A model generated the notes under the pieces. It ran no database searches. It was not told the origin of the DNA and worked only from the letters and a program-made list of their open reading frames with translations. 64,000 nt of DNA from Zanthoxylum bungeanum (taxonomy: Eukaryota > Streptophyta > Magnoliopsida > Sapindales > Rutaceae). Made by a program: the position numbers and the translations under genes. Positions 15,691 to 63,493 of this stretch are shown piece by piece. Within the stretch, counting starts at the first letter, position 1. Each line of letters starts with the position of its first letter. The stretch is from the NCBI GenBank assembly GCA_019454045.1, contig SKCR01023735.1, forward strand, positions 1 to 64,000, read 5' to 3'.

Positions 15691-16016
15691 AGCCGGGAAT
15701 GGCAATCCAAGAATGGAGCAGAGTTCAAGAATGAACAAGCCGGGAATGGCACTCCAAGAATGGAAATGCAGTTCAGTAATGAACAAGCCGGGAATGGCAC
15801 TCCAAGAATGGAAATACAGTTCGAGAATGAACAAGCCGGGAATGGCACTCCAAGAATGGAAATGCAGTTCAGGAATGAACAAGCCGGGAATGGCACTCCA
15901 AGAATGGAAATACAGTTCGAGAATGAACAAGCCGGGAATGGCACTCCAAGAATGGAAATGCAGTTCAGGAATGAACAAGCTGGGAATGGCACTCCAAGAA
16001 TGGAAGAACGGTTCGG
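15691..16016 (+). repeat. 48-bp tandem repeat array
   Basis: About six to seven units of 48 bp: GGGAATGGCACTCCAAGAAT, then GGAAATACAGTTCGAGAATG, then AACAAGCC. Two unit variants alternate (ATACAGTTCGAG and ATGCAGTTCAGG). Because 48 is a multiple of three and stops are absent, several frames on both strands stay open; these are not genes. Two more units reappear at 16385-16515. Confidence 0.85.
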
Positions 16017-16915
16017 GAATGAACCACCTCACAGTAACGGTTCAGGAATGGACATCTCACAGTAACGGTTCGGGAATAGACCACCTCACGATAACAGTTC
16101 GGGAATGGACCACCTTACAGTAACAGTTCAGGAATGGACACCACAATAACGGTTCGGGAATGAACCACCTCACAGTAACGGTTTGGGAATGGACATCTCA
16201 CAGTAACGGTTCGGGAATGGACCACCTTACAGTAACAGTTCGGGAATGGACACCTCACAGTAACGATTCGGGAATGGACCACCTTACAGTAACAGTTCGG
16301 GAATGGACACCTCACAGTAACGGTTCGGGAATGGACCACCTTACACTAACAGTTCGGGAATGGACATCTCACAGTAACGGTTCAGGAATGAACAAGCCGG
16401 GAATGGCACTCCAAGAATGGAAATACAGTTCGAGAATGAACAAGCCGGGAATGGCACTCCAAGAATGGAAATGCAGTTCAGGAATGAACAAGCTGGGAAT
16501 GTCACTCCAAGAATGGAAGAACGGTTCGGGAATGGACCACCTCACGATAACAGTTCGGGAATGGACCACCTTACAGTAACAGTTCAGGAATGGACATCAC
16601 AATAACGGTTCGGGAATGAACCACCTCACAGTAACGGTTCAGGAATAGACATCTCACAGTAATGGTTCGGGAATGGACCACATTACAGTAACAGTTCGGG
16701 AATGGACACCTCACAGTAACGGTTCGGGAATGGACCACCTTACAGTAACAGTTCGGGAATGGACACCTCACAGTAACGGTTCGGGAATGGACCACCTCAC
16801 GATAATAGTTTGGGAATGCACACCTCACAGTAACGGTTCGGGAATGGACCACCTTACGGCAACGGTTCGGGAATGGACCACATCACAACACGGTTCGGAA
16901 TGAACCAGGGGTCGC
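16017..16915 (+). repeat. ~28-bp tandem repeats in a higher-order arrangement
   Basis: Units of 28-29 bp have the form GGTTCGGGAATGGACCACCT followed by a TACAGTAAC-like end, often in pairs (ACCACCTTACAGTAA and ACACCTCACAGTAA). A block of these, then 48-bp units (16385-16515), then a second similar block (16516-16860) shows that a compound segment was duplicated. The 48-bp and 28-bp units share CGGGAATGG. Confidence 0.8.
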
Positions 16916-17057: not shown

Positions 17058-19974
17058 TGTAGGCATTGTATTTTTGCATATAAAACCCGATAATGAGTCT
17101 CATTTGGAGGCACTACCTTTTGAGTCACGGAAGCCGCGGGAAACGGATATCGGAAGGGGAAATTCAGAATAAACAAGGTTCACTGTTTTCGTTCGTGCTG
17201 CGTTCGTGTATGTGTTCGAACGGCAAACAGATTGCGGGCATTCGTGTCGCTAGCCTCAACCCAAGCCCAATTAGCCCACCAAGCCCATAAGACACATCCT
17301 AATTAAATCAAATATTAATTAAATTAAAAGTCAATTAAATAAAATATTTAAACCATCATACCTAATCTAAACCAATCAAATATAATCATACCAAGTTAAA
17401 ATCAATCAACCAATATATTATTCCCAAACTTAAAATATTGTATGCCTAATCAACATAAACTAAATATTCAACCTTCCCTATCTAGCCAAGATTTGTCCCC
17501 CCTCAATCTTTGACTTCCCTTATCCAACACCAAATCAAATCCCTCTTTAATTAGCCAAATCTCTTTCCTTGTCAAGCCTAACCATTTGCCTATAAAAAGA
17601 ACCCTTCACCAACCTTCTCAACCATAGCTAGCTCATACACATAAGATACACACAACTCACACAAATCACAAGAGAAAAGAAAATAACCCCAAGCCTTCAC
17701 ATTAAAAGCACCATCACAACACACCAAGAGCCCTAGCCACTCAAGAAAATAACAAGAAAGAGTTCTCTTCATCCTCACTCTCCCATTGCCGAAATCGTAC
17801 CTTAATATAGCAGCCCCTTTAACACTAAAACAGTAGCCAAATCACGCCCAAACCACCCCCTATACAGCAGCAAAATACACTTAAAACATCCCATAAAAAC
17901 CTTAAAAACAATAACATAAATAAAACTGCATTCATAATCCTTAAAAGACTCACACAAGACTACACTAAAAACCCACACAAAAACTTGGAACAGTCCGTTG
18001 AAACGTCAAAACAGGTGACCTGAACAGCGAGCAGCAAAACAGAGGCCGAACAGTAGCAAATCGGAGTCAAAAGCAGCAGCAAAAGACGGAGAACGACGAC
18101 TCCAAACAGTGAGACAACGAACGAGAACAGTGAACCAGTGAACCGAAAGAGTTGCGGAGCATCCACCCTTCCGAAGACCGTGTGCCGTACATCCGAGAGG
18201 TGATTTAAAAGGTTAGACCTGAGGGTATTTTTCACACTCATCTTTATTTGATTTTTGTTATTTATTTTGATCGTATTTTACTTATTCGTTAAATCTCGTT
18301 TGTGTATGATGTGTGTTGTGGGTATTGGATGAATGAGAGATGTGTCAACTCTCGCGGTATATCGGATGGAAACCCGGACATAAATTTCATAGCCGATTCC
18401 GAATGGACGGTTATATGATCTGTACTCGGGACACAACTCCACGTACCGCTTGAGTAAACGGCACCCTCTTTTGTTTTTTGTTGCTTTGGTTTATTTATTT
18501 TTGTCATTTGGATTTTGTATGTCGTTTATGTATGCATGATTCAATCGAGCGCATGGGCTTAGTAAGTGGAATGAAAGATCCCCTATGGGGAGGGGCTAAA
18601 GCTCTTTACCACGATGCTTTGCCGCGCCGGTTGATGTGTGTTCGGTTGGATGCAAGATACGTTCAATCGGGCATACTTAGTTTGATATTATTGTCTTTAT
18701 CTTTGTTATGCATGGTTCAATCAAGCGCATGGGCTTAGTAAGTGGAATGAAATATCCCTTATGGGGAGGGGTTAAAACCCTTTACCACGATGCTTTGCCG
18801 CGCCGGTTGATGTGTGTTCGGATTGGATGTAAGATGTGTTCAATCGGGCATACTTGGTTTTGATATGATTGGCTCTATTTTTGTATGTATGATGCGATCG
18901 AGCGCATGGGCTTAGTATGTTGGTCTAAAGGTCCTCTCTTTGAGAGACCAAGAGCCCCAAAAGGCCACCTTTACGGCAGTACTTCGCCGCGCCCCTTTAT
19001 TTTGTTGTTTATGTATTGCGTCCCATTTCATACATCAGGTCTGTTCCCGTTCGAACGCGTTTACGAACGCAACTCGAACGCGCATGCATTTTTGCCTTAT
19101 CATGCATCAGGTCTCATTTCCGTTCGAACGCGTTCACGAACGCCATACGAACGTGAGCATTCTATTTCATTTCCGTTCGAAAGCGTTCACAAACGCCATA
19201 CGAATGTGAGCATTCTATTTCATTTCCATTCGAACGTGTTCACAAACTCCATACGAACGCGAGCATTCTGTTTCATTTCCGTTCGAACGCGTTTACGAAC
19301 GCTACTCGAACGAGAACATTCTGTTTACCGTTCGAACGCGTCTACGAACGCTGCACGAACGGACACGGTAAACTGATCCTCTTGCATCACATTACGACAT
19401 GTCCATCTTAGCATATAGTTACCCCTTTTCTATGTTATGTATTTGTATTACCCCTCTAGTTGTTTATTTCTGTTATGCGCTTAAATATCTCTTCTTAATA
19501 TGCATGCTAATAAGAATGCTATTTGTTTGCGCTTCCGTGTTTACCAATGCGTTAATTGACTTGTACGCTTGCCGTATGATAATCCTTATGTATGCAAATT
19601 GAGACATAGATTACATGCAAATAAGCTGTATGCAAATTCGAATAATGTGTTACATATAAATTTAGATGAACTTGTTGATGTATGTATGTGAATGTAGAAG
19701 CATGATATTCTTAGAAATAAGTGTTACTTAAGCCTGATTAAATTATTATATAAATCCTTTCATTACAAGTGGCATAAGTAAGGGACCATTCCGAACCCAA
19801 CGGTTTGAGGTCTTCCCTTGCGAGGGGTGAGTGCGGCCTTAAATCTCATTTTCCCGGTTCACACTGGGTGGCGACTCCATTATTCTCCGGTTTAGTCCCC
19901 CGTGGCTATTCCGTACTCCGGAACGGGCCGCGAGCCCGGGACAGCATGCGTCGCCCAGTTCCTGTGTCCCCACA
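17058..19974 (+). mobile_element. Right (3') LTR of gag-only element, TSD ATTAT
   Basis: A 2917-bp LTR is nearly identical to 9625-12586 apart from one 46-bp deletion. It ends ...TGTCCCCACA at 19974. The target duplication ATTAT occurs at 9620-9624 and 19975-19979, which proves the element borders (9625-19974, 10,350 bp). The TATA box is at 17591-17596. Confidence 0.92.
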
Positions 19975-38901: not shown

Positions 38902-39102
38902 TAGCGGAAGTCATCCGGTCGGATGCGTGGAATACTGAAATGCAGAGAGGACGTATTAAGAAGAGCCTTACTTGTAGTAACCCTTGTAGAGTTGTAAGAA
39001 AGACAACGGATCCCAAAAATGTGAGTAAAACCTCTTCTGACTTAGGTTGACATTTGATCATGCTTGTTTGTTATGGCTCACACAATGGTTTTGATATTTG
39101 TT
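38902..39102. other. Short non-coding spacer before repeat arrays
   Basis: No gene seen. Possibly a residue of the gag-pol region. Confidence 0.4.
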
Positions 39103-39905
39103 TTACGGCTCGGGTCTGCTCTTGTACCGCCGAGACCGATGTTTCTTTCCGGCTCGGGTCTGCTCTTGTACCGCCGAGACCGATGTCTCTTTCCGGTTCG
39201 GGTCTCTGCTCTTGTACCGCCGGGACCGATGTCTCTTTCCGGCTCGGGTCTGCTCTTGTACCGCCGAGACCGATGTCTCTTTCCGGTTCGGGTCTGCTCT
39301 TGTACCGCAGAGACCGATTGTCTCTTTCCGGCTCGGGTCTGCTCTTGTACCGCCGAGACCGATGTCTCTTTCCGGCTCGGGTCTGCTCTTGTACCGCCGA
39401 GACCGATGTCTCTTTCCGGCTCGGGTCTGCTCTTGTACCGCCGAGACCGATGTTTCTTTCCGGCTCGGGTGTGCTATTATACCGCCGAGACCGATGTCTC
39501 TTTCCAGCTCGGGTCTGCTATTGTACCGCCGAGACTGATGTTTCTTTCCGGCTCGGGTCTGCTCTTGTACCGCCGAGACCGATGTTTCTTTCCGGCTCGG
39601 GTGGTGTGTTATATACCGCCGAGACCGATGTCTCTTTCCGGCTCGGGTCTGCTCTTGTACCGCCGAGATCGATGTTTCTTTCCGGCTCGGGTCTGCTCTT
39701 GTACCGCCGAGACCCATGTTTATTCAGCTCGGGGCTGGTTTTCGTTCCGCCGAGGCCACTTGTTTATTCGGCTCGGGCCTGGATTTCGTTCCGCCGAGGC
39801 CGCTTGGTTATTCGGCTGGGGGCTGGATTTCGTTCCGCCGAGGCCGCTTGGTTAATCGGCTCGGATCTGGATTTTATTCCATCGAGGCCTTATGGTTTAT
39901 TCAGC
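39103..39905 (+). repeat. 44-bp tandem repeat array
   Basis: About 18 units of 44 bp: GCTCGGGTCTGCTCTTGTAC, then CGCCGAGACCGATGTCTCTT, then TCCG. The last few units are diverged (GGCCTGGATTTCGTTCCG). Since 44 is not a multiple of three, each long open frame cycles through all three phases of the repeat. This explains the large overlapping frames on both strands (for example 39054-39956), which are not proteins. Confidence 0.9.
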
Positions 39906-40610
39906 TCGGGGTCGGGTTACGTCCCACCGAGTCGGCTTCTTTGGACTGAGATGTAATATTCCCCCAGAGCCAAGTCTTTCTTTTAGCTCGGGGTCGGGTT
40001 ACGTCCCACCGAGTCGGTTTCTTTGGACTGGGGATGTAACATTCCCCCAGTGCCAAGTCTTTCTTTTAGCTCGGGGTCGGGTTACGTCCCACCGAGTCGG
40101 TTTCTTTGGACTGGGGATGTAACATTCCCCCAGTGCCAAATCTTTCTTTTAGCTCGGGGTCGGGTTACGTCCCACCGAGTCGGTTTCTTTGGACTGGGGA
40201 TGTAACATTCCCCCAGTGCCAAATCTTTCTTTTAGCTCGGGGTCGGGTTACGTCCCACCGAGTCGGTTTTTTTGGACTGAGGATGTAACATTCCCCCAGT
40301 GCCAAGTCTTTCTTTTAGCTCGGGGTCGGGTTACGTCCCACCGAGTCGGTTTCTTTGGACTGGGGATGTAACATCCCCCCAGTGCCAAGTCTTTCTTTTA
40401 GCTCGGGGTCGGGTTACGTCCCACCGAGTCGGATTCTTTGGACTGGGGATGTAACATTCCCCCAGAGCCAAGTCTTTCTTTTAGCTCGGGGTCGGGTTAC
40501 GTCCCACCGAGTCAGTTTTCTTTGGACTGAGGATGTGACATTCCCCCAAAGCCAAATGTTCTTCTCAACTCGGGGTCGGGTTACGTCCCACCGAGTCGAT
40601 CGTCATCAGC
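39898..40610 (+). repeat. 83-bp tandem repeat array
   Basis: About eight units of 83 bp: AGCTCGGGGTCGGGTTACGT, CCCACCGAGTCGG, TTTCTTTGGACTGGGGATGT, AACATTCCCCCAGTGCCAAG, then TCTTTCTTTT. They are very uniform, so recently homogenised. They share with the 44-bp units the pattern GCTCGG...CCGAG, which can pair as a short stem. The 60-aa frames in each unit are artefacts. Confidence 0.9.
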
Positions 40611-42076: not shown

Positions 42077-43549
42077 CACCTCCCAACCAGCTTATTACTA
42101 ATCCTTAGTAATTTAAGCGAAAACTTAAGATAAATTTTTTTTATCCAAGTTGATAATTGTTTTCTTTTTTCTAAATAATCAAAGAAGTAAATTCTAATGT
42201 ACTTTTTACCATTCTTCCGTACACACATAAAATAAAGAATCAATCAATTCATTGTGCCCATAATATTCACAGGTCTTGTTGAAAAAAGAGTAATATTTTT
42301 GTCCTAAAATTATATTAGAGTTCACACTTTTTTGGCAATAAGAGTTTATTTATAAATACAAAATATTTTTTTTAAATAATAATACATCTTCAAACCTTGT
42401 AACGAGATTTGGGTCAGTGACTCGTAAACTATTCGGCTTTAGAGCACTAGGTGATAAGACACCCCTACAGACTTAATTGCTCGGATCTCAGATGTTAAAA
42501 AGAAGAAGTGTCTGATTTCCTTAAACTTTTTCTTTAACTCATGTAACGAGCTTTGAGCCACATACTCCCAGACCAATTGGCCTTAGGGCACCAAGTGTTA
42601 AAATAACCCAACAGACTTAATTGCTCGAGTTAGAAAGGTTACGAAATCGAATTTATTCACACATTTTCTTTCAATCTCAAGCTCTAATGTTTTACTTGAA
42701 CAATCACTGCTTGCTGAGGCAAAATGTCCGGTTACTAAGTAAAAGCTTGATTATTATTAATATCATTTTTTAAACTAATTCAAGCTATATCGTTTTACGT
42801 GAACAATCACTGCTTGCTTAGGCAAGATGTCCGGTTACTAAGTAAAAACATGATTATTTTTATTGAATAAAAACACATATTCCACTGCCTTTAGGTGCTA
42901 CCTCAAACAAACTAGAGAACTGAATATTATAAAATTTTCACTTACAATCCACGATCATATGTTACCGTGTATATTGATAATACCTGTCAAATGAGCATAT
43001 GAGGATCAAATTTAATCAATATTATGGAGAATTCACAAATTTAAATGATTCAAAAAGAAAAGAATAAAAATAACTTGTTACAAAATATTGAGATGCGTCT
43101 CAGGAGTGAAAACTTCTTACATTGCCATCTTTGAACAACAATTCCACTTGGTTAGTCAAAACTTTATTGTTTGTTTGTGTGTAGTTTTTTTTTTTTTTAA
43201 AAAAATCACAAAAGAAAATCAACACAAAATAATTATTTTTTTACACTTAAATTAACAACAAAGCAAAAACAACATATATATTTTTTTTTTTATTTTTACA
43301 TAAAACAACAACACAAAAATGAAAATATTTTTTTTGAAAGAAAAACATAACATAAAAACGAAGATATTTTTTTGAAAGAAAAACACAACATAAAAACGAA
43401 AACTATATAGTCAACTATCCCCTCCCTATCCAAATTGAGACATTGTCCCCAAAGTCTGAATAAGAAGAAGTAGAGTTTATAAGACATCACCTGGTTAGTG
43501 TGGAATCGACAATTGAATCTACGACTATTTAAAAGAAAAAAATTAAAGA
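42077..43549 (-). other. 3' internal non-coding region of Athila-like copy 2
   Basis: Equivalent to 55825-57135 of copy 3. It contains two ~143-bp repeats (starting about 42399 and 42545) with AACGAG(A/C)TTTG, 'GGGCACCAAGTGTTAA' and 'GACTTAATTGCTCG'. T-runs and repeats of AAAACATAACATAAAAACGA lie near 43340. No gene. This is the tail between the LOG-like frame and the 3' LTR. Confidence 0.65.
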
Positions 43550-44194
43550 TTAAGATTCAAGTCAACTCTACCCTTCTAGACACGATCATTATCAGACCTG
43601 TTCAACTTGGAAAGAATGAGGTTGATTTTTGATTCATAAGCTAAGAGTTGGTCAATTAATTCATAACCTTTTCTTGTATTTAAGACGATATCTTTTACCG
43701 ATCTTGAAATGAACCCAAGTCTTTTGGCATCCTTAAGAAATACTAAAAAAAATCGAAAAAATGATTAACATTAAGTAGTCCAATGGGTTTTTGGTGAATG
43801 TCCAAGTTCGCTCATGACGCAACTGTGAATATTTATTCGAACGTGCCTAGCCTATCTAATAAAGTAATAAAAACGTCATCATGATTAATCATTTCAGTAA
43901 GTCTTTCAGACATACATGAGACACTGTATTATTCTCCATTTGATTTTCCAATGAGGTTTTCGTCTATCAAAGGTTTTGGAATGATTCCCAAAACTTGACT
44001 GCCACCTTCTTGCACGACCTTTGAAACACATCCCATCAATCTAAGATTACCATCGTCATATACTAAGTGCATGTTTCTTTCCGTCATAACTCTACCCAAT
44101 TCTTTTGCAGCCTCAACAAATTCTGGTTTAGTTCCAGAGCTAGTTCCATAAAATACACAGATATTAGTGACTCGTCATTTTGAAGTTTTTTCAT
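43550..44194 (-). pseudogene. LOG: LOG-like cytokinin riboside 5'-monophosphate phosphoribohydrolase, decayed copy
   Basis: Reading the minus strand from ATG 44194, after one frame change, gives NICVFYGTSSGTKPEF, LGRVMTERNMHLVY, QEGGSQVLGIIPKPL, SERLTEMINHDDVFIT, ANLDIHQKPIGLLNV and ELIDQLLAYE. These follow the LOG family order along its whole length without introns. The nucleotide-binding motif has decayed (VYDDGNLRLMG for VYGGG-x-x-GLMG) and the PGG-x-GT-xx-E motif is destroyed (LLDRLGTFE*). Stops occur at least three times. It lies between the nucleic-acid-binding-like frame and the 3' LTR, exactly as in copy 3. Confidence 0.85.
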
Positions 44195-44689
44195 TTTTGT
44201 TCTCTCTCTTATCTGGATATGTCGAAGGGAGAAATGACGAGTTGTATTTATGGATCCTGAAAAAAAGGTGAGTAATAAAAGCACTAGTACCTGTAAAATG
44301 ACAATTGTTAGATGAACAGTAAAATAGATCGTGAAAGTAAAAAAGTTTAGATACTGTCGTTAAAATTAAAGTAAAGGAATTCAAAACAGTGAATTAAAGT
44401 AAATCAAAACAATAATTTAAAGTAAGAGAAATCAAAACAATAAATTGAAACAATATGTACTGGTAGTTGTTATTATGGCTCACGTCTTCCTCTAATTTTA
44501 CGTCTAGTAACGGCTTGAGCGCCCTCTATGGGTCGAACATATGCTTCCCATCCAATTTTCTTATAAATTGGCAAACAGGTCTTTTAAAGTTAGATTCTCG
44601 AGACTGTATTGTTAACTTTCTTTTTGAAATTATGTATGCAAATTATGAATTACTCAATAAATATGTCCACTAGGATGCGTCTCAAGAGT

Positions 44690-45068
44690 CAACGATATAT
44701 CATCTAAAGTCTCCTTACTCAAGTTATCTATAATGAATTGAATTTTATCTTCGCGATTGTCAGACACCATTCCTAAATAACGATAACGAGTGTTGCATGT
44801 CCAACGTGCACATTTATAACAAACACCTAATTATTTAGCTATTCGTTTCTTAGCATATGTGTTTTTACCTAAACCGGGCATGTAAGAAATGAAAGAGTCA
44901 GATGACTCATCTACCAAGCGTGCTTTAATTACCAAACAAATATCGCTAAGAATACCATTGATCATAAGAAGCTTCATTCTTTCGATGCATGCTTTGTAAA
45001 TTTTCATTAGAGCATTTTGGGGGAGAGAATGAAAATGATTGTGGAGTTTTACGAGAGTTTCTTCTATG
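44690..45068 (-). pseudogene. Carlavirus NABP-like zinc-binding frame, decayed copy
   Basis: Minus-strand translation from about 45066 gives EETLVKLHNHFHSLPQNALM, KIYKACIERMKLLMINGI, SDICLVIKARL, SDSFISYMPGLG, YAKKRIAK, stop, GVCYKCARWTCNTR and GMVSDNREDKIQFI. It is collinear with the 58205-58588 frame of copy 3 and has one internal stop. The fourth zinc cysteine is replaced by Tyr. The initiator appears mutated (ATA for ATG). Function unknown in this element. Confidence 0.75.
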
Positions 45069-45259: not shown

Positions 45260-46400
45260 TCAATCATAGTACACTGGGTTTGAAAGGAAAAACGATTCTT
45301 GAAAATTTGAACACTCCAAACATGGTTTGAGATGTTGTCCATTCACTTTAAATATATCACCATCCCTAAGATTGTCAGTGTCAGTAGCTCCATATGGGTA
45401 AATGTGGTTTACAATAAAAGGGCCACTCCATTTGGATTTCAATTTTCCAGGAAATAAATGAAGACGAGAATTATAAAGTAAAATTTTCCGACCAATTTCA
45501 AACATTTTTCGTGAAATTCGACTATCAAGAAAGGCCTTAGTTTTATCTTTAAGAATTTTTGCATTCTCATATGAATCATTCTTTAGCTCTTCATGTTCAT
45601 TTAATTGCAGTTTACGTTCATGACTGGCATTTTCAAGGTTTGAGTTGACTGTTTTAATAGCCCAGTATGCCTTATGGTCAAGTTTTACAAGCAAATGACA
45701 AAGTTTTCCATAAACTAGACGATATGGAGACATTCCTAAAGATATTTTGAAAGCTGTTCGATATGCCCAAAATGCATCAGTCAGTCAAAAAGACCAATCT
45801 GTGCAATTTGGGTTAACAGTTTTTTCCAAAATTTGTTTGATTTTCCTATTTTCTAGTTCAACTTGACCATTTATCTTAGGGTGATAAGATATAGAAACTT
45901 TATATGTAATTCCATATTTTTCATTAAGGACTCAAAAGGCTTGTTACAAATATGTTTACCTCCATCACTTATAATGGCCCGAGGGATTCCAAATCGACTT
46001 AAAATATTTTCTTTTAAAAATTTAATCACAGTTTTGTGATCATTGTTTTGACAAGGAATCGCCTCAACCCATTTTGAGACATAATCGACCCCAACTAAAA
46101 TATATAAAAATCCAAATGACGATGGAAATGGACCTATGAAATCTATTCCTCAACAATCAAAGATTTCGATGACTAGGATGTGATTTAAAGACATCATGTT
46201 TCTTTTTGAAATAAGTCCCAACTTTTAAAATTTTCACAAGTTTTGCAGAAAATATGTGTATCTTTAAAAATGATGGGCCAATAAAATCCACACTGTAAGA
46301 TTTTTGCAGCGCTTTTCTTAGATGAGAAGTGAGCTCCACATACTTCTGAATGACAAAACTGAACAACACTACTTATCTCATTGCCCGATATGCATCGTCA
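45260..46400 (-). pseudogene. pol: Ty3/gypsy integrase of Athila-like copy 2
   Basis: The open frame 45260-45733 (157 aa) holds the integrase C-terminal part: [35 protein letters not shown] and [12 protein letters not shown]. The core precedes it on the minus strand (45740-46150): GPFPSSFGFLYILVGVDYVS, KWVEAI, then IISDGGKHICNK (second aspartate region), with stops and frameshifts. The zinc-binding N-terminal region falls around 46157-46400 in another frame. Inactive. Confidence 0.75.
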
Positions 46401-47716
46401 GAAAATTTGATCAGGGCAATACTTGAATAATTATGGATCGTCACAGTAGAATCTTTTGACTTCGATTAAAAATTTCTTCTTATCTTAATGGCTCCAATTT
46501 GGAGGTATTTTTCCTGTTGCAAGAAAATTGACAATATTAGCATACTAAGACAATATATTTACAGAAAATAAAAAATCATCAGGAAAAGAGTCATTGGTAG
46601 GAGTTATGTCAATTTATGACTCATTTGTGAGTCTCGATAAATGATTTGCAACCAAATTCTCCGCTCCTTCCTTGTCATTGATTGTGAGATTGAATTCTGG
46701 AAGCAACAAAATCTACTGTAATAATATTGGCTTTGCATCCTATTTAGACATCAAATATCTAACATCAGCATGGTTAGAATAAACAACGGTTGAAGAACTA
46801 ATTAAATATAATTGAAATTTATCCAATGCAAATATTACAGTAAATAATTCTTTTTATGTGGTAGTGTAATTCATTTGTGCATTGTTTAAAGTTCTACTTA
46901 CGTAATTACATACGGCTTGTCTTCCTTTCTCCGTCTTAATACTGCACCAACTGCATAATCACTGGCATCCTATATTAGCTCAAAAAGCAAAGACCAATCA
47001 GGGGATTGCATGATAGGAGCAGAAGTTAAAAGACTGATAATCCTTTCAAATGATTTTTGACATTCTTCTGTCTATTCAAATGTTGCATCTTTTAATAAAA
47101 GGTTACACAATGGTTTGGATATGATACTAAATTTTTTAATGAACCTCTTATAAAACCATGCATGTCCTTAGAAAGAACGAATTTCATTGACTATTTTTTA
47201 TGGTGGCAATTTAGAGATTACCTATATTTTTACTTTGTCAACCTCAATACCTTTAGATGACACAACGTGACCCAAATAATTCCTGAATTAGCCATGAAAT
47301 GACATTTTCTCAGTATAACACAAGTCATTTTTCTTCACATCTTTTCAAAATATTTTCCAAATTATTCAAGAAATTATCAAATGAGTTCCCAAAAATAGTT
47401 ATATCATCCATAAATACCTCTAAACAGTGTTCAACCATGTCATTAAATAGGCTTAACATGCATCGATGGAATATTGCTGGTGTATTACAAAGTCTAAAAT
47501 ACATTTTTCTAAATGCAAATGTTCCAAAGGGACATGTGAATGTGGTCTTTTCCTGGTCTTCTAAAGCAATGAGAATTTGATAATAACCTGAGTAACCATC
47601 AAGAAAGCAATAGTAGTGATGTCCTGCTACTCTTTTTAAAAGTTGGTCAAGAAATGGTAAAGGAAAGTGATTTTTTTCTAGTGACGTCATTTAGTTTTCT
47701 ATAATCAATGTAAAAT
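46401..47716 (-). pseudogene. pol: Ty3/gypsy RT-RNase H of Athila-like copy 2, 5' truncated
   Basis: The clearest piece is 47325-47690: NHFPLPFLDQLLKRVAGH, CFLDGYSGYYQI, TFTCPFGTFAFRKMYF and FMDDITIFG. This is the RT palm, with FMDD in place of the usual Y/F-x-DD context. Just upstream, in another frame, is IDYRKLND. Downstream (46401-47320) is broken RT thumb and RNase H. Homology stops abruptly at about 47716, so gag, protease, 5' LTR and primer site of this copy are missing. Confidence 0.8.
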
Positions 47717-53829: not shown

Positions 53830-55824
53830 TGACCGGTGCATAATCACACGCATATAACGCAAGCGCACGTATCGTTCAAGTAGTATAAAAAGTATCGATC
53901 CCACGATGACTTAATACCTAATCTATTAATTTTATTAGGTCAAATTATTACTAGTATCTAACAGGTTGATTGATTGAATGGGAATGATGATGATTTTAAA
54001 TTTAAAAATAAGTAAATAAAATTGCCCAAAAATAGGTTGAGGAAAATTCAAATTTATAAAATCATCCAGGGTTGTGATTTCTTCTAATATCTAATTAAAA
54101 ATGAAGTGGTTATTTTTTATTTTTGTAATATATCGGTTTACTAACCTGGAACTCGAAATTATGCAAAAGCCTTTGTCGATGGTCAGATGCAAATACCCAG
54201 TGTAACCCAATTGAACCATATGTCTATGTCAACCAAATTATCTGGATTCATTAAAATTAAGTTCCAATTGTGGTTACCCTCGCCCGACAGGTATATTTCT
54301 ATCCTGTAAAGAAATCTATTAAAGGGTTATATATCCTCAAGGAAGATCGTGAGCTATTAAGTCTACGACTGAAACCTAAAATTCCTTTGTCAAGTTTATT
54401 TTAGATTTACCAGATCAATCTTATTAATGGCCAATTAACAAGACGTATTAAACTTAAGACTTAATAAGTAAACCTTTAAATTACCCAAACTACAAAAATA
54501 ACCCCTTATAAACCGGTGATATTAGAATTCATCACAACCCTAGATAACTAACTTAGTTATGACACATAACTAGGGCGAGTAAAAACTTAAAAATAAAAGA
54601 CATAAATTAAAATGCTGAAAAGTAAATGCGGTAAAATAAATACTGAAAAGTAAAATTACAATAAAATAAAATGCTAAGGTAAAATGATATACTTTTACTA
54701 CTACTAATTTAGATATCTCCCTTAATATAATATATTAACTTGTGATGATATTACCAAACAGCCATATAGGCGGTAACCTGATTAAGTCAAATTAAGTCCG
54801 ACCAGCCATATAGGCGGTATCAAAATTTGTCCATAAACCTGCCATATAGGCGGTAAGAAAGTTTAATTACCAACCGACCAATCTGGCGGTATCCTTGCTT
54901 AGTCAGGTTTAAACCATTTTAAAATGAATTACCAACCGACCAATATAGCGGTATCCTTATTAAGTCAAGTTTTAAATAGTGAATATATTATAATTAATGG
55001 AGATTAATCTAAATAGAAATAGTAAAAGAATTACATTTCACCATAGCAGGGGGAAGTTACCTCCTCATGGTTGAATAGTAAAAATTGTAAAAGTAAAGAA
55101 AGTAAATTACAATTACTATTACAGAACGTAATTAAAATTAATTACAAAACTGAAATTAAAATAAATTAGATAGAAAACTCCCTATTTAGATCAGAGAATT
55201 CAGAGAGGAAGGTATATCTGAAACTGAAATTTCGAGCTCAATTTATAGGCCTCGGTAACCCCCTCGCATCGCGACGCGCAAGTTTCTTCTTGCGTCGCGA
55301 CGCACTGACGTGTCGCTCTCTGATTCGTCGACTCAGATTCTTATCCGCTGACGTGGCAATTGCAGATGATTAACTCAATAATTGTGCTGACGTGGCAGTG
55401 ACGTGGCACATTGACTCGGTCAACTGGTGATGTGGACGATGGCATGGCTGACACGTGACGATGGCGATTGTCGGCACCATAAGATGATGACACGTGGCAC
55501 AGCGCACGTTAGCAGATCGACTGTGATGGTGACACGTGGCACGGTGCACGTTAGCAAAGTCAAACTTCACAGATTATGACATGTGGACCCGACACACGTT
55601 AGAATAGAGCGGCGCATGTTAGGTGTCGCGACGAGCCAATTTACAATTTTGCCCTTTTGTGTCATTTTTCACTGTTTTGGTCCCAAATCACCTCCAGAGA
55701 GTTCTGAAACTTTATTTATCTACAAAATAACACAAAACACATCAAAATATTCACAAAACTCAAGAAACTATACAAAATATTATGTTAAATGAGTGAGAAA
55801 TAATGATACATTTACCACTCATCA
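53830..55824 (-). mobile_element. 3' LTR of Athila-like copy 3
   Basis: A 1995-bp LTR; on the plus strand it starts TGACCGGTGCATAATC and ends CCACTCATCA. It is almost identical to 61492-63493, so the insertion is young. The flanks are GTGAG (53825-53829) and GTCAG (63494-63498), a 4-of-5 target duplication. It carries the same promoter motifs as the other LTR (ACGTGGCA words at 55349, 55388, 55399, 55490 and 55532) and five to six GGCGGTA repeats at 54745-54960. Confidence 0.93.
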
Positions 55825-55840: not shown

Positions 55841-57135
55841 ATTTTGCTAGTCCTCGAGCAAAACATAAAATAAATTAACATAAACATCTTTAAAATAAAA
55901 TTTAACTAAGCCACTTTTGTAGGGATCACGGTTGCATTTAGCGTATGCAACAAGCCTTTAAACCCCTAGGTGTCCCTATGGGATGAGTTGTAGTCTCGTG
56001 AGGGTTTACATCAATGATACCCACAAATATTTTACAAAAGTAAAAATGTAGTGAAACTAATGCACACAAAAGCAAAAAGACAAGAGAAAATGGAATAAAG
56101 AAGTTAGTGACTAATCAGGTGAAACTTCTACTTCAAGTCACTAGTTGTTTTCTTTCTTTCTAAATTACCGAATAAGTAAATTCTCCGATTATATTTACCA
56201 TTGTCCATATATATAGCCAACAAAATATTAATCAGCTCATTTTTGCCCACAACAGTCACAAGTGCAGTTGATAAGAGAATAATATTTTTGTCCTAAAGTT
56301 TTATCAAAATTCACACCTTTTTGCAGCAGTGGAATAATTTTTCTTTGATTTTTTTTTATTTTTTTTATATACAATATCTTCCATCTATGTAACGAGTGTT
56401 GGGTCGGTGGCTCCTAAACCAGTTGGCTTTAGGGCACCAAGTGTTAAGACACCCCTATGGACTTAATTACTCAGACTTCAGATATATATATTTTTTGCAG
56501 CATCTTTGATCCATGGAGCGAGCTTTGGGCCAGTGACTCCCAAACCAGTTGGTTTTAGGGCACTAAGTGTTAAAACACCCATACGGACTTAATAACTCGG
56601 ATCTCAGACTTTTTTTTTTACTCCATTGCTTTTTGAGATGCTACCTCCAATTAAACTAGAGCACTGAATATTACAAACTTTTCAATTACAGCTTATGTCT
56701 GTATGTTACCATGCATGTTGATAATACCTGCCAACTGAGCATATGAAGATCCATTTTAGTCAATTTTATGGAGAATTTACAAATTAAATAATTCAAAAGG
56801 AAATAAACAAAAACTAACTTGTTTCGAAAATGGGTTGAAGTACGTATCAGGAATGGGAACTCCTTACACAGCTATCTTTCACCAATTTCACCTTTTTAGT
56901 CAAAATAAAAATAAAAAACGCAAAATATTTTGGTAATTTTTGAAAATTTTTCAATTTTTTTGTATTTTTTTAAAAATTTTGGACTAAAAATAAAAACAAC
57001 ACACAACTAAAAACAAGATACTGATAACCTAATTCCCTCCCCCAAACCTAAATGAAACATTGTCCCCAATGTCTTAAACAGTAGAAGAAGAGTTTAGAAG
57101 ATAGTACCTGGTTAACTGAAATTCGACACGAAAAG
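55841..57135 (-). other. 3' internal non-coding region of Athila-like copy 3
   Basis: Non-coding tail between the LOG-like frame and the polypurine tract. It holds two ~123-bp repeats (about 56395 and 56518) sharing CGAG.(G/T)TTGGG, AAACCAGTTGG and TTTAGGGCAC.AAGTGTTAA. T/A runs follow near 56910-56990. Copy 2 has the same organisation; element 1 retains only the end of it. Confidence 0.65.
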
Positions 57136-57788
57136 TTAAAGGTTAAGATCCAGATTAATCTGATGTCTCTTACCATGATCGTCCTCAGACCAATTTATCT
57201 TTGAAAGGATATGGTCAATTTGTGGTTCATAAGCTAAGATTTGGTCAATTAGATCCGGAGCAGTTCTGGCAGTGAAGAGGAGTTCTTTTAAAGGTTTTGA
57301 CACGAACCCATTTCTCCGGGCATCATCAAGAAACACACAAAGAAAATCATAAAATCCTTCAACGTTGTACCGTCCAAGCGGTTTCTGGTGTATGTTCAGG
57401 TTCGCCCAAGATAACACTGTAAACATTTCCTCCAATGTACCCAAGCCACCTGGCAAAGTAATAAAAGCATCAGCATGGTTAATCATTTCTACCAATCGTT
57501 CAGACATACCTGGCACGATCAGTTCCTCTCCGTTTGATGGTCCAATAAGATTTGCTTCTGCCAAGGGTTTTGGGTGATTCCCAAAACGTGACTGCCTCCT
57601 TCCTGTACGACATTTGAAATGATCCCCATTAGTCCAAGATTGCCACCACCATATACTAAGTGCATATTTCTTGCAGCTAAGACTCGACCCAATTCATGTG
57701 CTGCTTCTATGTATTGTGGTTTAACACCAACACTAGTACCGCAAAACACACAGATGTTTTCAACTCATCTTCTTGAAGTGGCTTCCAT
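57136..57788 (-). pseudogene. LOG: LOG-like cytokinin-activating phosphoribohydrolase carried by retrotransposon
   Basis: LOG enzymes release active cytokinin bases from their riboside 5'-monophosphates. From ATG 57788 the frame gives NICVFCGTSVGVKPQYIEAA, LGRVLAARNMHLVYGGGN and LGLMGIISNVVQEGGSHVLG. Then follow SERLVEMINHADAFITLPGG, LGTLEEMF and ANLNIHQKPLGRYNVEGFYD. The nucleotide-binding GGG-x-x-GLMG and the catalytic PGG-x-GT-xx-E motifs are intact. Length (about 217 codons) equals plant LOGs, but there is no intron where host LOG genes have several, so capture probably went through RNA. Two lesions: TGA at codon 8 (57765-57767) and a one-base frameshift near 57575. A splice-acceptor-like site lies 52 nt upstream. 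Confidence 0.88.
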
Positions 57789-57866: not shown

Positions 57867-58204
57867 CACTAGTACATGCCAAATGACAATTATTAGTTAA
57901 ACAGTAAAATAAATCGTGATAGTCAAAAAGGTTTGGATCCTGTCGGAGAAAATAAAAGAAAATGACAAAACAATCACAATTATTAGGAAAAGACAAAGTG
58001 ATATAATATGTACAAGAAAAGTAGTGGCTTGATTGACGTCTATGCGTCAGGAACAAGCTTCACATCCAATTTTCTTATAAATTGGCAAACAGGGTCTTTT
58101 TGAGTCAGATTCCCGAGACTTAACTGTTGTCTTTCTTTTTGGAATTGTGTATGTAATTTGCGAATGGCTATATGAACATATCCACTGGGATGCGTCTCAA
58201 GAGT

Positions 58205-58588
58205 TTAAGATTTATCATCTACAGACTTCTTACTCAAGCCATCCCTAATGAATTTAATTTTATCTTCGCGATTATCAGACACCATTCCTAAAGAAAGACA
58301 ACGAGTATTGCAATTCCAGCGTGCACATTTGTAACAAACACCCATTTGCTTAGCTCTACGTTTCTTTGCATAGGCGCTTCTTCCAAAATCAGACAGATGT
58401 GAAATAAAAGAGTCAGAAGACTTACCTGCCAATCGGACCCGTGCTTCAATAATCCAACGAATATCAGTTGGAATACCTTTGATCATCAGTAGTCCCATCC
58501 GTTCCAAGCGAGCTTTGTAGACTTTCATTAGAGATTTTTGAGGGAGAGAAGGAAATTGCTTGTGAAGATTTGCGAGAACTTCTTCCAT
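58205..58588 (-). CDS. Carlavirus NABP-like zinc-binding protein carried by retrotransposon
   Basis: A frame of 127 codons from ATG 58588; it is open 26 codons further upstream, but that part looks like intron (TTTAATTTTTGCAG). Visible parts: a Leu-rich helix region (MEEVLANLHKQFPSLPQKSL), then GIPTDIRWIIEARVRLAG, a basic block YAKKRRAK, a CYKCARWNCNTRC cluster (C-x2-C-x4-C-x3-C) and an acidic/basic tail. The order 'IP-x-DI...A...basic block...zinc cysteines' is what I know from the small carlavirus nucleic-acid-binding, silencing-suppressor protein. Sequence is complete with no lesion. It lies between integrase and the LOG-like frame. It could alternatively be a host-derived zinc protein. 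Homology to the viral family is judged by eye only. Confidence 0.6.
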   Translation of the reverse strand: MEEVLANLHKQFPSLPQKSLMKVYKARLERMGLLMIKGIPTDIRWIIEARVRLAGKSSDSFISHLSDFGRSAYAKKRRAKQMGVCYKCARWNCNTRCLSLGMVSDNREDKIKFIRDGLSKKSVDDKS

Positions 58589-58762: not shown

Positions 58763-59329
58763 TCACTCAAATGATTCTCCCCAGTAGTGCTTAACACGCT
58801 TGTTTTTAACCTTGAATGTTTTGTTGGAGTCAGGATCATGTATCTCAACGGCTCTATCTGATAAAACCTTAGTGATTAGGAATGGACCTGACCACCGTGA
58901 TTTTGGCTTCCATGGGAAAAATTTCACCCTTGATTTGTTTAACAGTACCTTCTGCACCGGTTCCAGTTGTATGAGCACTAACTTCTCATCATGTCTTTTC
59001 CTTGCTTTTTCTTTGTACAATTTGGCATCCTCAAAAGGCTGATTCTGAAATTCCTCCAATTCGTTGAGCTGGTGGAACTTTTTCTCTTCTGTTGCTTGTA
59101 GTGCAAGAATTGGATTTTTCAGTGCAAAAGACGCTTTATCTTCAGGCTCCACAGGCAATTGACATGTTTTAAGTTTGTCAGTAGAACTTTGCATTGCATT
59201 GGAGTTCTGAATGGTACTGTGTATCACATCAAGTCTGAAACATTCCTCCTTCTTTTCATCATCTGGGAAATTCATGGCCTTGAAAACATTGAATGTTACT
59301 TCTTGGTCCTGTACTCTCATGGTTAATTC
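58763..59329 (-). pseudogene. pol: Protease end fused in frame to integrase C-terminus (pol core deleted)
   Basis: The 185-codon frame from 59320 starts with the C-terminal part of the gag-protease region (QEVTFNVFKAMNFPDDEKKE, ECFRLDV). After a short linker it runs into the integrase C-terminal part: FHQLNELEEFQNQPFEDAKL, then KEKARKRHDEK, then WKPKSRWSGPFLI and KVKNKRVKHYWGE. RT, RNase H and the integrase core, present in copy 2, are absent. The join keeps the reading frame. It is separated from the frame upstream only by one TGA (59330-59332). No enzyme activity expected. Confidence 0.85.
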
Positions 59330-60241
59330 TCATTTTTGTACATCAATAATGGTTCGACTTGTAGCCAAGAACGGTCTCCCGTGGATGATTGGCATGTCTG
59401 CGTCTTCCTCCATATCAAGGACAATAAAATATACTGGGAAAATGAATTTGTCAACCTTAACCAGCACATCCTTAACTACGCCTCTTGGAAATACGAGCGT
59501 TCTATCAACAAGTTGTAGAGAGACTGAAGTTGGCATTGTTTCTCCAATCTGCAATTTCCTGAAAATATAAAAAGGCATCAAGTTAATACTCGCACCTATA
59601 TCACATAAAGCCCTACCAAAGTTATGTTCTCCTATAATGCAAGAAATGGTGAAACTGCCAGGATCTTTCAACTTTGGGGGAAGCTTCCTCTGAATGATGG
59701 CGCTGTATTTTTCTGTCAATGATATTGTCTCGTAATCTCCCAATCTCCATTTGCGTGAAAGAATGTCTTTCATGAATTTTACATAGCTGGACATTTGTTC
59801 CAAGGCTTCTGCAAATGGAATGTTGATGTGCAGCTTTTTGAACACCTCCAGGAAACGAGCAAACTGCTTGTCCAGTTTGTTTTTCTGAAGACGCTGAGGA
59901 AAATGAGGAGGTGGAGTGATCTGTTCTTTTTCCTTTGCTTCTTTTTCCTCCATCTGTTGCTTTGTTTCTTTTGGAACTTCCTCAGCTGTTGTTTTGGCTC
60001 CAACATCTTTGTTGATTTCAGTACCACTTTTTAACATGATGGCATGACACTGCTCCTTCCCTATGTTCCTTGGATTTGGTTCTGTGTTGCTGGGAAGATT
60101 CTCTGGCGGTCTGTAACTCTGAGCATTGGCCAGTTGTCCAATTTGATTCTCCAATGCTTTGATGGAAGCAGATTGGCTTTGAAACATAACATCATATGCT
60201 GCTTGTTGCTTTTTGAACATCTCTGCAATCAATTCCTTCAT
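59330..60241 (-). CDS. Gag C-terminal region and aspartic protease of Athila-like copy 3
   Basis: A frame of 303 codons. The first part (MKELIAEMFKKQQAAYDVMF, then SIKALENQIGQLA) is the coiled, Gln-rich end of Athila gag. It is followed by a Lys/Glu-rich linker and PPHFPQRLQKNK. The protease core reads FGRALCDIGASINLMP, with DIGAS in the place of the usual D-S/T-G; a Gly-Ala variant here is normal for Athila elements as I know them. IIHGRPFLATSRTIID closes the domain. The ATG at 60241 overlaps the gag stop as ATGA, so the frame is -1 relative to gag. The protease would cut the Gag-Pol polyprotein. Confidence 0.8.
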   Translation of the reverse strand: MKELIAEMFKKQQAAYDVMFQSQSASIKALENQIGQLANAQSYRPPENLPSNTEPNPRNIGKEQCHAIMLKSGTEINKDVGAKTTAEEVPKETKQQMEEKEAKEKEQITPPPHFPQRLQKNKLDKQFARFLEVFKKLHINIPFAEALEQMSSYVKFMKDILSRKWRLGDYETISLTEKYSAIIQRKLPPKLKDPGSFTISCIIGEHNFGRALCDIGASINLMPFYIFRKLQIGETMPTSVSLQLVDRTLVFPRGVVKDVLVKVDKFIFPVYFIVLDMEEDADMPIIHGRPFLATSRTIIDVQK

Positions 60242-61359
60242 TTCTGGTTCTTTTCAAACTCCTGGCTTTGCTGTTGGAATCCTGGTGGTGGATAGTTCTT
60301 TTGCCCTGAATTGTTGCTCCATGAAAAGTTAGGATGATTCCTCCACCCTGGGTTGTAGGTGTTGGAATATGGATTGTTCCCCTGTTTGTTGAAATTGTTG
60401 ACATAATTCACAGTTTCTTCAAGTTGGTTTGGCTCTGATGTTATTCCAAAAGGTGAACTTGTGGCTCCAATGTTGCTTTGAGTGCTGAGAGTCTCCATGA
60501 ATTTGCATATCTGATCCAGCTTGGCATTGACTGCTGTATTGGCTCCAACTTCATAAATTCCAGCAATTCTTTGAATCATACTTCTTTCTGTTGGCCATAA
60601 GGAATTGTTGTTGGCCATTTCTTCGATTAGGTCCCATGCTTGATCTTCTCCTTTTGCCATCAAAGCTCCTCCAGCAGCAGCATCAATTATGGTTCTCATC
60701 AATCCAGAAAGTCCATTATAGAAAGTTTGGACTTGAAGCCATTTTGGAATCTCATGGTGAGGACATTTCCGGAGCAAATCTTTGTACCTTTCCCAAGCTT
60801 CGTAGAGAGTTTCCGAGTCTTGTTGTACAAAGGATGTGATGTCATTCCTCAGCTTTCCAGTTATGGCTGGTGGAAAGTACTTTGCAAGAAATTTGGTGGC
60901 TAAAGTGTTCCAAGTTGTGATGGAACCTGCTGGTAGTGAATGTAGCCAAGATTTTGCTCTGTCTTTCAAGGAGTATGGAAAAACCCGCAGTCTCATTGCT
61001 TCTTCAACTTCTCGGTTGTAATTGAAAGTGCCGCAAACTTCCAGAAAGTTGCTGATGTGGGTATTAGGATCTTCAGTTGCTTTTCCCCCAAACTGCACTG
61101 ACTGTTGAATCATCTGAATGCATGATTTGATGTCACACGCATTTGCTGGTAAATGGGGAAGTACAATACAGGAAATGAAGCCGTCGACCACCATAATGGT
61201 TCTGTCTCGAATGGGTATTGGTGGTGCAACTTCCAAAGGTTCAGGCTCCATGTTGACTAAAGCTTCTTGGCCTTCTCGCCTTTCCCTTCTCAACTGTCTG
61301 ATGGTTCTTTCAATTTTCGGGTCAAACGGTCGGAGTTCAAAGCTTCTAGTTCGTCTCAT
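60238..61359 (-). CDS. gag: Gag of Athila-like copy 3
   Basis: Structural protein of the virus-like particle, 373 aa from ATG 61359. The N-terminus is Arg-rich (MRRTRSFELRPFDPKIERTI). The capsid region (about residues 85-210) has ISNFLEVCGTFNYNREVEEA, RLRVFPYSLKDRAKSWLHSL, LATKFLAKYFPP, LYEAWERYKDLLRKCPHH and VQTFYNGLSGLMRTIIDAA. It ends with the Asn/Gly-rich NPYSNTYNPGWRNHPNFSWS typical of Athila gag, without a zinc knuckle. It is intact. A splice-acceptor-like TTTTGTTTTCTTGTGTTTTAG ends 15 nt before the ATG (61375). The end overlaps the protease frame by 4 nt. Confidence 0.88.
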   Translation of the reverse strand: MRRTRSFELRPFDPKIERTIRQLRRERREGQEALVNMEPEPLEVAPPIPIRDRTIMVVDGFISCIVLPHLPANACDIKSCIQMIQQSVQFGGKATEDPNTHISNFLEVCGTFNYNREVEEAMRLRVFPYSLKDRAKSWLHSLPAGSITTWNTLATKFLAKYFPPAITGKLRNDITSFVQQDSETLYEAWERYKDLLRKCPHHEIPKWLQVQTFYNGLSGLMRTIIDAAAGGALMAKGEDQAWDLIEEMANNNSLWPTERSMIQRIAGIYEVGANTAVNAKLDQICKFMETLSTQSNIGATSSPFGITSEPNQLEETVNYVNNFNKQGNNPYSNTYNPGWRNHPNFSWSNNSGQKNYPPPGFQQQSQEFEKNQK

Positions 61360-61467: not shown

Positions 61468-61485
61468 TCCCCGGCAACGGCGCCA
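61468..61485 (-). promoter_or_regulatory. Primer-binding site, tRNA-Asp type
   Basis: On the plus strand TCCCCGGCAACGGCGCCA equals the 3' end of plant tRNA-Asp(GTC) over 18 nt, so the minus-strand element RNA would pair with it. It sits 6 bp from the 5' LTR. This primer is characteristic of Athila elements. Confidence 0.88.
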
Positions 61486-61491
61486 AAAACT

Positions 61492-63493
61492 TGACCGGTG
61501 CATAATCACACGCGTATAATGCAAGCACACGTATCGTTCAAGTAGTATAAAAAGTATCGATCCCACGATGACTTAATACCTAATCTATTAATTTTATGAG
61601 TTCAAATGATTACTAGTATCTAACAGGTTGATTGATTGAATGAGAATGGTGATGATTTTAAATTTAAAAACAAGTAAATAAAATTGCGCAAAAGTAGGTT
61701 GAGGAAAATTCAAATTTATAAAACCATCCAGGGTTGTGATTTCTTCTAATATCTAATTAAAAATGAATTGGTTATTTTATGTTTGTGTAATATATCGGTT
61801 TACTAACCTGGAACACGAAATTATGCAAAAGCCTTTGTCAATGGTCAGATGCAAATACTCAAAGTAACACAATTGAACCATATGTCTATGTCAACCAAAT
61901 TACCTGGATTCATTAAGATTAAGTTCCAATTGTGGTTACCCTCTCCCGACATGTATATGTATATCCTGTAAAAAAATCTATTAAAGGGTTATCTATCCTC
62001 AAGGAAGATCGTGGGCTATTAAGTCTAAGGCTGAAACCTAAAATTCCTTTGTCAAGTTTATTTTAGATTTGCCAGATCAATCTTATTAATGGCCAGTTAA
62101 CAAGACGCATTAAACTTAAGACTTAATAAGTAAACCTTTAAATTACCCAAACTACAAAATAACTTCTTATAAACCAGTGGTATTAGAAATCATCACAACC
62201 CTAGATAACTAACTTAGTTATGACATATAACTAGGGCGAGTAAAAACTTAAAAAATAAAAGACATAAATTACAATGCTGAAAAGTAAATGCGGTAAAATA
62301 AATACTGAAAAGTAAAATTACAATAAAATAAAATGCTAAGGTAAAATGATCTACTTTTACTACTACTAATTTAGATATCTCCCTTAATATAATATATTAA
62401 CTTGTGATGATATTACCAACCAGCCATATAGGCGGTAACCTGATTAAGTCAAATTAAGTCCGACCAGCCATATAGGAGGTATCAAAATTTGTCCATAAAC
62501 CTGCCATATAGGCGGTAAGAAAGTTTAATTACCAACCGACCAATCTGGCGGTATCCTTGCTTAGTCAGGTTTAAACCATTTTAAAATGAATTACCAACCG
62601 ACCAATATAGCGGTATCCTTATTAAGTCAAGTTTTAAATAGTGAATATATTATAATTAAGGGAGATTAATCTAAATAGCAATAGTAAAAGAATTACATTT
62701 CACCCTAGCAGGGGGAAGTTACCTCCTCATGGTTGAATAGTAAAAACTGTAGAAGTAAAGAAAGTAAATTACTATTACTATTACAAAAAGTAATTAAAAT
62801 TAATTACAAAACTGAAATTAAAATAAATTAGATAGAAAACTCTCTATTTACATCAGAGAATTCAGAGAGGAAGGTACATCTGAAACTGAAATTTCGAGCT
62901 CAATTTATAGGCCTCGGCAACCCCCTCGCGTCGCGACGCGCAAGTTTCTTCTTGCGTCGCGACGCGCTGACGTGTCGCTCTCTGATTCGTTGACTCAGAT
63001 TCTTATCCGCTGACGTGGCAATTGCGGATGATTAACTCAATAATTATGCTGACGTGGCAGTGACGTGGCGCTGACGTGGCATGTTGACTCGGTCAGCTGG
63101 TGATGTGGACGATGACATGGCTGACACATGGCGATGGCGATTGTTGGCACGGCGCACGTTAGCAGATCGACTGTGATGGTGACACGTGGCACGTCGCACG
63201 TTAGCAAAGTCAAACTTATCAGATTATGACATGTGGACCCGGCACACGTTAGAATGGAGCGGCGCATGTTAGGCGTCATGACGCAGCCTGCGCGTCGCGA
63301 TGCGCCAATTTACAATTTTGCCCTTTTGTGTCCTTTTTCACTGTTTTGGTCCCAAATCATCTCCAGAGAGTCCTGAAACTTTATTTATCTATAAAATAAC
63401 ACAAAATACATCAAAATATTCACAAAACTCAAGAAACTATACAAAATATTAGGTTAAATGAGTGGGAAATAGTGATACATTTACCACTCATCA
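61492..63493 (-). mobile_element. 5' LTR of Athila-like copy 3
   Basis: A 2002-bp LTR, TGACCGG...CACTCATCA on the plus strand, nearly identical to 53830-55824. In element direction it would drive transcription leftward. It has five GGCGGTA-type repeats at 62405-62635 and the promoter described separately. The complete element is 9664 bp. Confidence 0.93.
62901..63191 (-). promoter_or_regulatory. LTR promoter: TATA, GC hairpin, ACGTGGC cluster
   Basis: In element direction the TATA box TATAAATTG is at 62909-62901. A GC-rich fold-back (62928-62967, GCGTCGCGACGC twice around TTTCTT) lies just upstream. Then come TGACGTGGC words at 63011, 63050, 63061 and 63072 and ACACGTGGCA at 63182. ACGTGGC is the core of ABRE/G-box sites and TGACG that of TGA-type bZIP sites. 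Together they suggest bZIP-driven, possibly stress- or ABA-responsive, transcription; this is inference. Confidence 0.6.

Follow-up and report, generated by a model that had tools for sequence, protein, structure and literature searches.

A probable two-gene accessory module in Athila-type retrotransposons: a putative homologue of flexivirus nucleic-acid-binding proteins beside a LOG-derived protein with an altered pocket

Extra open reading frames (ORFs) of long terminal repeat (LTR) elements have been discussed (PMC7264820, PMC6317226, PMC11728184), with no mention of viral nucleic-acid-binding proteins (NABPs) in the cited passages, and the relevant part of PMC9289625 reports a YgdH/LOG (LONELY GUY) domain in Ty3/gypsy LTR-element consensuses for two Citrus species and, under less strict filtering, for Populus trichocarpa, a result said there to be 'in line with' that of Steinbauerova et al. 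2011. In the window analysed here, a 64,000-nt stretch of Zanthoxylum bungeanum contig SKCR01023735.1 that has the look of plant DNA and is dense in LTR elements, an Athila-type LTR element (element A, 63493-53830, minus strand) likewise carried a LOG-like extra coding region. Steinbauerova and colleagues reportedly found LOGL4-like ORFs in two Athila-like elements. An earlier reading made from the letters of the window alone (the sequence-only reading) knew of no described LTR family with a gene for cytokinin biosynthesis. Because YgdH/LOG domains were already reported in PMC9289625, LOG capture by LTR elements was known before, and the new content of this locus is the altered pocket of the LOG-like protein together with its virus-type neighbour gene; the cited passage of that paper mentions neither the pocket signature nor a NABP-like neighbour. 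We propose, with a probability of roughly 0.6, an Athila-type Ty3/gypsy lineage with a two-gene accessory module at the env position, in which a homologue of the cysteine-rich NABPs of flexiviruses such as carla- and vitiviruses is followed by a LOG-derived type-I phosphoribohydrolase with a remodelled pocket. The data directly support the gene order and strand shared by two divergent elements, purifying selection on either gene in the past, and many database relatives of intact length. In Athila elements that bear env, this gene lies between integrase and the 3' LTR, apart from gag-pol.

Both accessory genes were present in the same order in element B, a divergent second element at about 47.7-42.1 kb (minus strand) whose copies lay about 13 kb from those of element A. 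The features that define the module were:

58043..58588, minus strand: NABP-like accessory gene of element A, a 182-codon span matching Pfam Carla_C4 and Viral_NABP
57136..57788, minus strand: LOG-like accessory gene of element A, PF03641 on the C-terminal piece, one stop and one frameshift
47325..47690, minus strand: reverse transcriptase fragment of element B (Pfam RVT_1, 4.6e-13)
45260..45733, minus strand: integrase C-terminal region of element B, assigned by its match to the tail of element A and by position
44529..45067, minus strand: NABP-like gene of element B, decayed with 6 stops
43546..44192, minus strand: LOG-like gene of element B, decayed with 6 stops and a frame change

The NABP-like gene of element A, missed like the whole of element B by the sequence-only reading, adjoined the LOG-like gene upstream, between the latter and the integrase tail. 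DNA of elements A and B aligned in four main pieces of 70-78% identity, which began at the NABP start (58591) and ended at 56134, some 300 bp before the 3' LTR. Their integrase tails were identical at 46 of 128 residues (36%) and gave no blastn match; a Pfam scan of the element B ORF at 45260..45733 found no integrase match. Such a pattern would fit exchange of the module among Athila sublineages, the alternative being faster evolution of the integrase tail. In Acer yangbiense, one gene model (P0074) joined Carla_C4/Viral_NABP to a following SLOG/LOG domain (PF18306, 24.5 bits against a cut-off of 26.3), which supports a probable NABP-LOG adjacency in another plant, with the caveat that the model may be mis-joined. 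Equal source-sequence lengths (6562 for P0038 as for P0130) were weighed as a sign of linkage and dropped as unverified; such equality also occurred between sequences hardly long enough for the two genes (654 for P0022 as for P0172). The LOG-like gene of element B ruled out a one-off insertion, the outcome named beforehand as speaking against LOG being inherited with an Athila-type lineage; the divergent sibling and the selection described below bear out such inheritance.

The minus-strand LOG-like frame at 57136-57788 was correctly recognised in the sequence-only reading. Its C-terminal ORF (57564-57136, 142 aa) matched PF03641 with an E-value of 2.4e-27, and the motifs GGGNLGLMG and PGGLGTLEE were present. 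P0090, an intact 217-aa relative that also matched PF03641 and had a type-I LOG fold in its structure model, aligned over the full gene through two reading frames (57788-57564 and 57600-57139), with 76% identity over residues 1-75 and 84% over residues 64-217. The alignment confirmed the single frameshift and the single in-frame stop, which fell in the first frame segment. Copy A retained the PGGxGTxxE motif and the catalytic Arg and Glu.

Element-type LOGs formed a clade distinct from the type-I LOG phosphoribohydrolases AtLOG3 (2A33), AtLOG8 (1YDH), CgLOG (5ITS) and PaLOG (5ZBJ), and differed from them in the replacement of Lys100, Glu125 and mostly His97. In CgLOG, Lys100 aids adenine binding, the proposed prenyl-site residues include His97, Lys100 and Glu125, and Ala changes at adenosine monophosphate (AMP)-binding and catalytic residues, except S19A, nearly abolish activity; Glu125 is not among the AMP-binding residues, and the cited passage does not list the mutants one by one (PMC4979012). 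At the CgLOG/AtLOG3 positions His97, Lys100, Glu125 and Trp129, copy A had Ser, Leu, Thr and Trp. Among 99 element-type rows, counted over those resolved at each position, Lys100 was kept in 0/87, Glu125 in 0/97 and His97 in 6/87 (replaced in the other 81), and Trp129 persisted in 95/99. Catalytic Arg99 was kept in 74/86 rows and lost in 12, and catalytic Glu122 was kept in 91/97. Copy A and its relatives thus lacked the full adenine/prenyl pocket (His97, Lys100, Glu125, Trp129) by which a cytokinin-activating LOG is recognised, whereas Lys100 and Glu125 were both retained in 80 of 80 bacterial LOG loci.

With Lys100 and Glu125 lost, cytokinin activation cannot be assumed for the element LOG, and the label given to the gene in the sequence-only reading is in doubt. 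The pocket change provides a specific ground for doubting such activity in element LOGs generally. The sequence-only reading suggested that an ordinary cytokinin-activating enzyme could raise active cytokinin in element-expressing cells and so favour meristematic transmission. The type-I fold of the P0090 model, the frequent retention of Arg99 and Glu122 and the past purifying selection on LOG all fit this explanation; we nevertheless consider it unlikely, given the replaced pocket residues, the roles of these residues and the near-inactive mutants in CgLOG (PMC4979012), and the invariance of Lys100 and Glu125 in the bacterial loci.

The source of the element LOG was approached by trees in which the plant host LOGs were two, AtLOG3 and AtLOG8. 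In one tree, a branch separated plant and element rows from 48 others (46 of bacterial type, taken from the database or from loci, plus two bacterial LOGs whose structure is known); its support was 93/48, the bootstrap leaving it unsettled. A second tree joined plant, element and bacterial groups at one node and was uninformative on origin, and the identities of P0133 to AtLOG3 (49.5%) and to the P. aeruginosa LOG (48.4%) were close. We favour a plant host as the probable source.

Selection was evaluated by comparing codons of copies A and B, guided by intact relatives and with stop codons skipped. For LOG (209 codons), the proportion of synonymous differences (pS) was 0.60 and that of nonsynonymous differences (pN) 0.24, with a ratio of nonsynonymous to synonymous substitution rates (dN/dS) of 0.24-0.25; for NABP (170 codons), pS was 0.39, pN 0.19 and dN/dS 0.41. 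In-frame pN/pS was 0.40 for LOG and 0.50 for NABP, and control values from the same codon pairs shifted by one or two bases were 0.84 and 1.14 (LOG) and 0.84 and 1.11 (NABP). Both genes were under purifying selection in the past; for LOG, this is the outcome of the codon-change test between element copies that the sequence-only reading had called for. Constraint during the active life of the element was probably stronger, because decay of both copies after insertion biases the ratio upwards. Since A and B are far apart (dS near saturation for LOG, at about 1.2, and about 0.54 for NABP) yet share the module, the element lineage itself is most likely where the signal originated. This argues against both genes being selfish passengers, captured and carried without benefit under a constraint that predates capture, and so does the maintenance of exact length despite wide divergence and many fragments (217 aa in 25/99 LOG rows, 182 aa in 71/169 NABP rows). 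That both window copies are pseudogenes and that some LOG relatives have lost catalytic residues would suit passengers, which we regard as very unlikely overall.

The NABP-like gene of element A was interrupted by one in-frame stop after codon 127, with homology continuing past it. An ORF covering its first part (58666-58205) matched Carla_C4 (2.4e-6, 27.9 bits against a cut-off of 20.9) and Viral_NABP (2e-5, 25.1 bits against a cut-off of 23), and the copy was 87% identical over 182 aa to the intact relative P0001. A protein-database search with the element A protein returned 88 relatives, and an alignment of 28 sequences used as query gave 748 matches at E<=10, of which the best 120 were examined; hosts named among the relatives listed were Populus, Xanthoceras, Acer and Rhamnella, and the intact length of 182 aa was present. 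At E<=0.01, Viral_NABP was matched by 27 of the 28 aligned sequences, as was Carla_C4. A basic KKRRA-like stretch occurred in 143 of 169 family rows and a C-x2-C-x3/4-C-x3-C cluster in 123 of them, fragments included. In the viral structure database BFVD, plant-flexivirus nucleic-acid/RNA-binding or silencing-suppressor proteins accounted for 25 of the 46 matches listed for the P0001 model and for 19 of the top 23; the viruses in this list are ones we take to be flexiviruses. The NABP profile, searched against PDB sequences, yielded 0 matches up to an E-value of 1, and scans of IMG/VR with LOG P0090, NABP P0001 and the NABP alignment found no relative.

The Pfam matches, above all, indicate that the gene encodes a probable homologue of flexivirus nucleic-acid-binding and RNA-silencing-suppressor proteins. 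A non-viral origin, in which an independent cysteine-rich basic protein came to resemble them by convergence, appears quite unlikely. It would draw on the large share of the Pfam match that comes from a short basic zinc-finger-like region, and on weak structure scores from a poor model. Against convergence, copy A, P0006, P0018, P0032 and P0054 had Viral_NABP matches of 84-89 residues that lay partly N-terminal to the finger (shorter ones occurred in P0074, with 54 residues, and P0062, with 36), and flexivirus NABPs head the viral structure list.

Several observations weigh against the proposed module. Of six NABP rows scanned one at a time, P0018 and P0062 each fell below one of the two Pfam cut-offs. 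The AlphaFold2 model of P0001 was poor (pLDDT 54.8), and its best BFVD match had an E-value of 0.071, with none below 0.001. These values are individually not significant, and the link to viruses is carried chiefly by Pfam scores that exceed their cut-offs by a modest margin. The loss of Arg in 12 of 86 rows means that in some lineages the LOG protein may not work as an enzyme at all. The gap in dS between LOG and NABP is unexplained. Both window copies of each gene were broken, no intact copy was seen with its DNA context, and the element context of the database relatives was seen here for A and B alone, to which the literature adds LOG in LTR elements of Citrus and Populus (cited part of PMC9289625).

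The proposed module would act as follows. Pyrimidine-rich CAGs ahead of the two accessory ORFs of element A (TTTTTGCAG and CCCTTTTCAG) could be splice acceptors, and the NABP-like and LOG-like proteins would be made from spliced subgenomic RNAs in the fashion of env. The NABP-like protein may bind RNA and dampen small-RNA silencing of the element, as p12 does for chrysanthemum virus B. The LOG-like protein, its adenine/N6 pocket remodelled, may act, in place of the customary cytokinin precursors or in addition to them, on a nucleotide 5'-monophosphate or a related compound, possibly a defence signal or else a cytokinin-like ribotide in modified form. We infer both functions from sequence. The LOG fold also includes SLOG sensors such as ThsA. 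A bolder and rather improbable version is a counter-defence island, in which a flexivirus-type silencing suppressor would be shared with Athila by gene transfer, the LOG-derived protein, no longer devoted to cytokinin, would bind or destroy a nucleotide signal, possibly of host defence, and the module would move between sublineages as a unit.

Whether plant retrotransposons encode RNA-virus-like anti-silencing proteins is, to our knowledge, largely open, and a screen of the open-access literature by title and abstract start found no report of NABP in LTR elements. AlkB domains, too, occur in flexiviruses. An orchid Ty3/gypsy lineage described in part of PMC9289625 resembles the present one in having fixed an extra enzyme gene, there an AlkB m6A demethylase, and differs in gene and host. 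Carlavirus-type NABPs such as p12 of chrysanthemum virus B, a nuclear transcriptional activator and cytoplasmic silencing suppressor according to the cited passage of PMC7588395, have Carla_C4 and Viral_NABP in common with the element protein, as well as a basic stretch followed by clustered cysteines; the element protein differs in being retrotransposon-borne and 182 aa long, with extra N- and C-terminal parts and a putative role in silencing. Insect R1 elements are alike in holding a plant-RNA-virus-type suppressor domain proposed to be protective, a tobamovirus-like helicase with weak silencing suppression (cited parts of PMC6338049; cf. PMC4686597), but are non-LTR elements with a helicase in place of NABP. 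Sunflower Tekay and Athila elements also have additional ORFs, 3'-terminal in Athila and proposed as an RNA-silencing modulator in Tekay; these are transmembrane env-like (Athila) or DRBM-like (Tekay), and the cited passages name neither viral NABP nor LOG (PMC11728184). VANDAL DNA transposons are named there as a case of anti-silencing, which for some LTR elements is merely proposed (PMC11728184, in part). A viral-suppressor homologue kept by selection in a retroelement lineage, with relatives of the intact 182-aa length in Populus, Acer, Xanthoceras and Rhamnella, provides named proteins for testing anti-silencing. The present data suggest that the element took up tools for handling its host, an altered hormone enzyme and a relative of a virus protein, both with past selection.

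The remaining features of element A were:

61492..63493, minus strand: 5' LTR, 2002 bp, pairing with the 3' LTR
61468..61485, minus strand: primer-binding site TGGCGCCGTTGCCGGGGA, directly inside the 5' LTR
60238..61359, minus strand: gag ORF, 373 aa (Pfam Retrotrans_gag, 4.2e-22)
59330..60241, minus strand: gag-protease-region ORF, 303 aa, assigned by position
58763..59320, minus strand: integrase C-terminal tail, recognised by its identity to the element B integrase-tail ORF
53830..55824, minus strand: 3' LTR, 1995 bp, pairing with the 5' LTR

The element had been described as complete, with paired LTRs and a tRNA-Asp site. The LTR pair and the primer-binding site stood, the latter presumably complementary to plant tRNA-Asp; completeness did not. 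Reverse transcriptase, RNase H and the integrase core were all missing between the gag/protease ORFs and the integrase tail, so element A is a pol-deleted rather than a complete insertion, and this copy is dead. The LTR pair, gag and tRNA-Asp-type primer-binding site point to the Athila lineage. A Pfam scan of the ORF at 59330..60241 found no family at E 0.01; its DIGAS-like motif, we assume, points to the protease region. The integrase tail matched Integrase_p58_C at E 0.012, below the family cut-off. The gag and protease-region ORFs (59330-61359, minus strand) were still open despite the lost pol core, and a non-autonomous gag-bearing family might look alike.

Across 1971 compared sites, 54 transitions and 33 transversions separated the two LTRs (Kimura two-parameter distance 0.046); with 1.3e-8 or 7e-9 substitutions per site and year, the insertion dates to about 1.8-3.3 million years ago. 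The 5-bp flanks, CTGAC and CTCAC, were alike at four of five positions, with one mismatch. Two LTR-like copies on the plus strand, opposite to element A (431-2316 and 3499-5404, about 1.2 kb apart), had at most 89% identity to its LTRs. Opposite the gag of element A, Rfam snoR71 matched 60749-60855 on the plus strand with 47 bits against a gathering cut-off of 40; either a snoRNA lies within gag or the Rfam family has absorbed retroelement sequence. Elsewhere in the window, dense tandem arrays occupied 39102-40598 and 15691-16907, with 44- and 83-bp units and 29-57-bp units, and the long ORFs inside them are probably spurious. A direct repeat of 2.96 kb with 97% identity (9625-12586 and 17058-19974) may represent the LTRs of another element.
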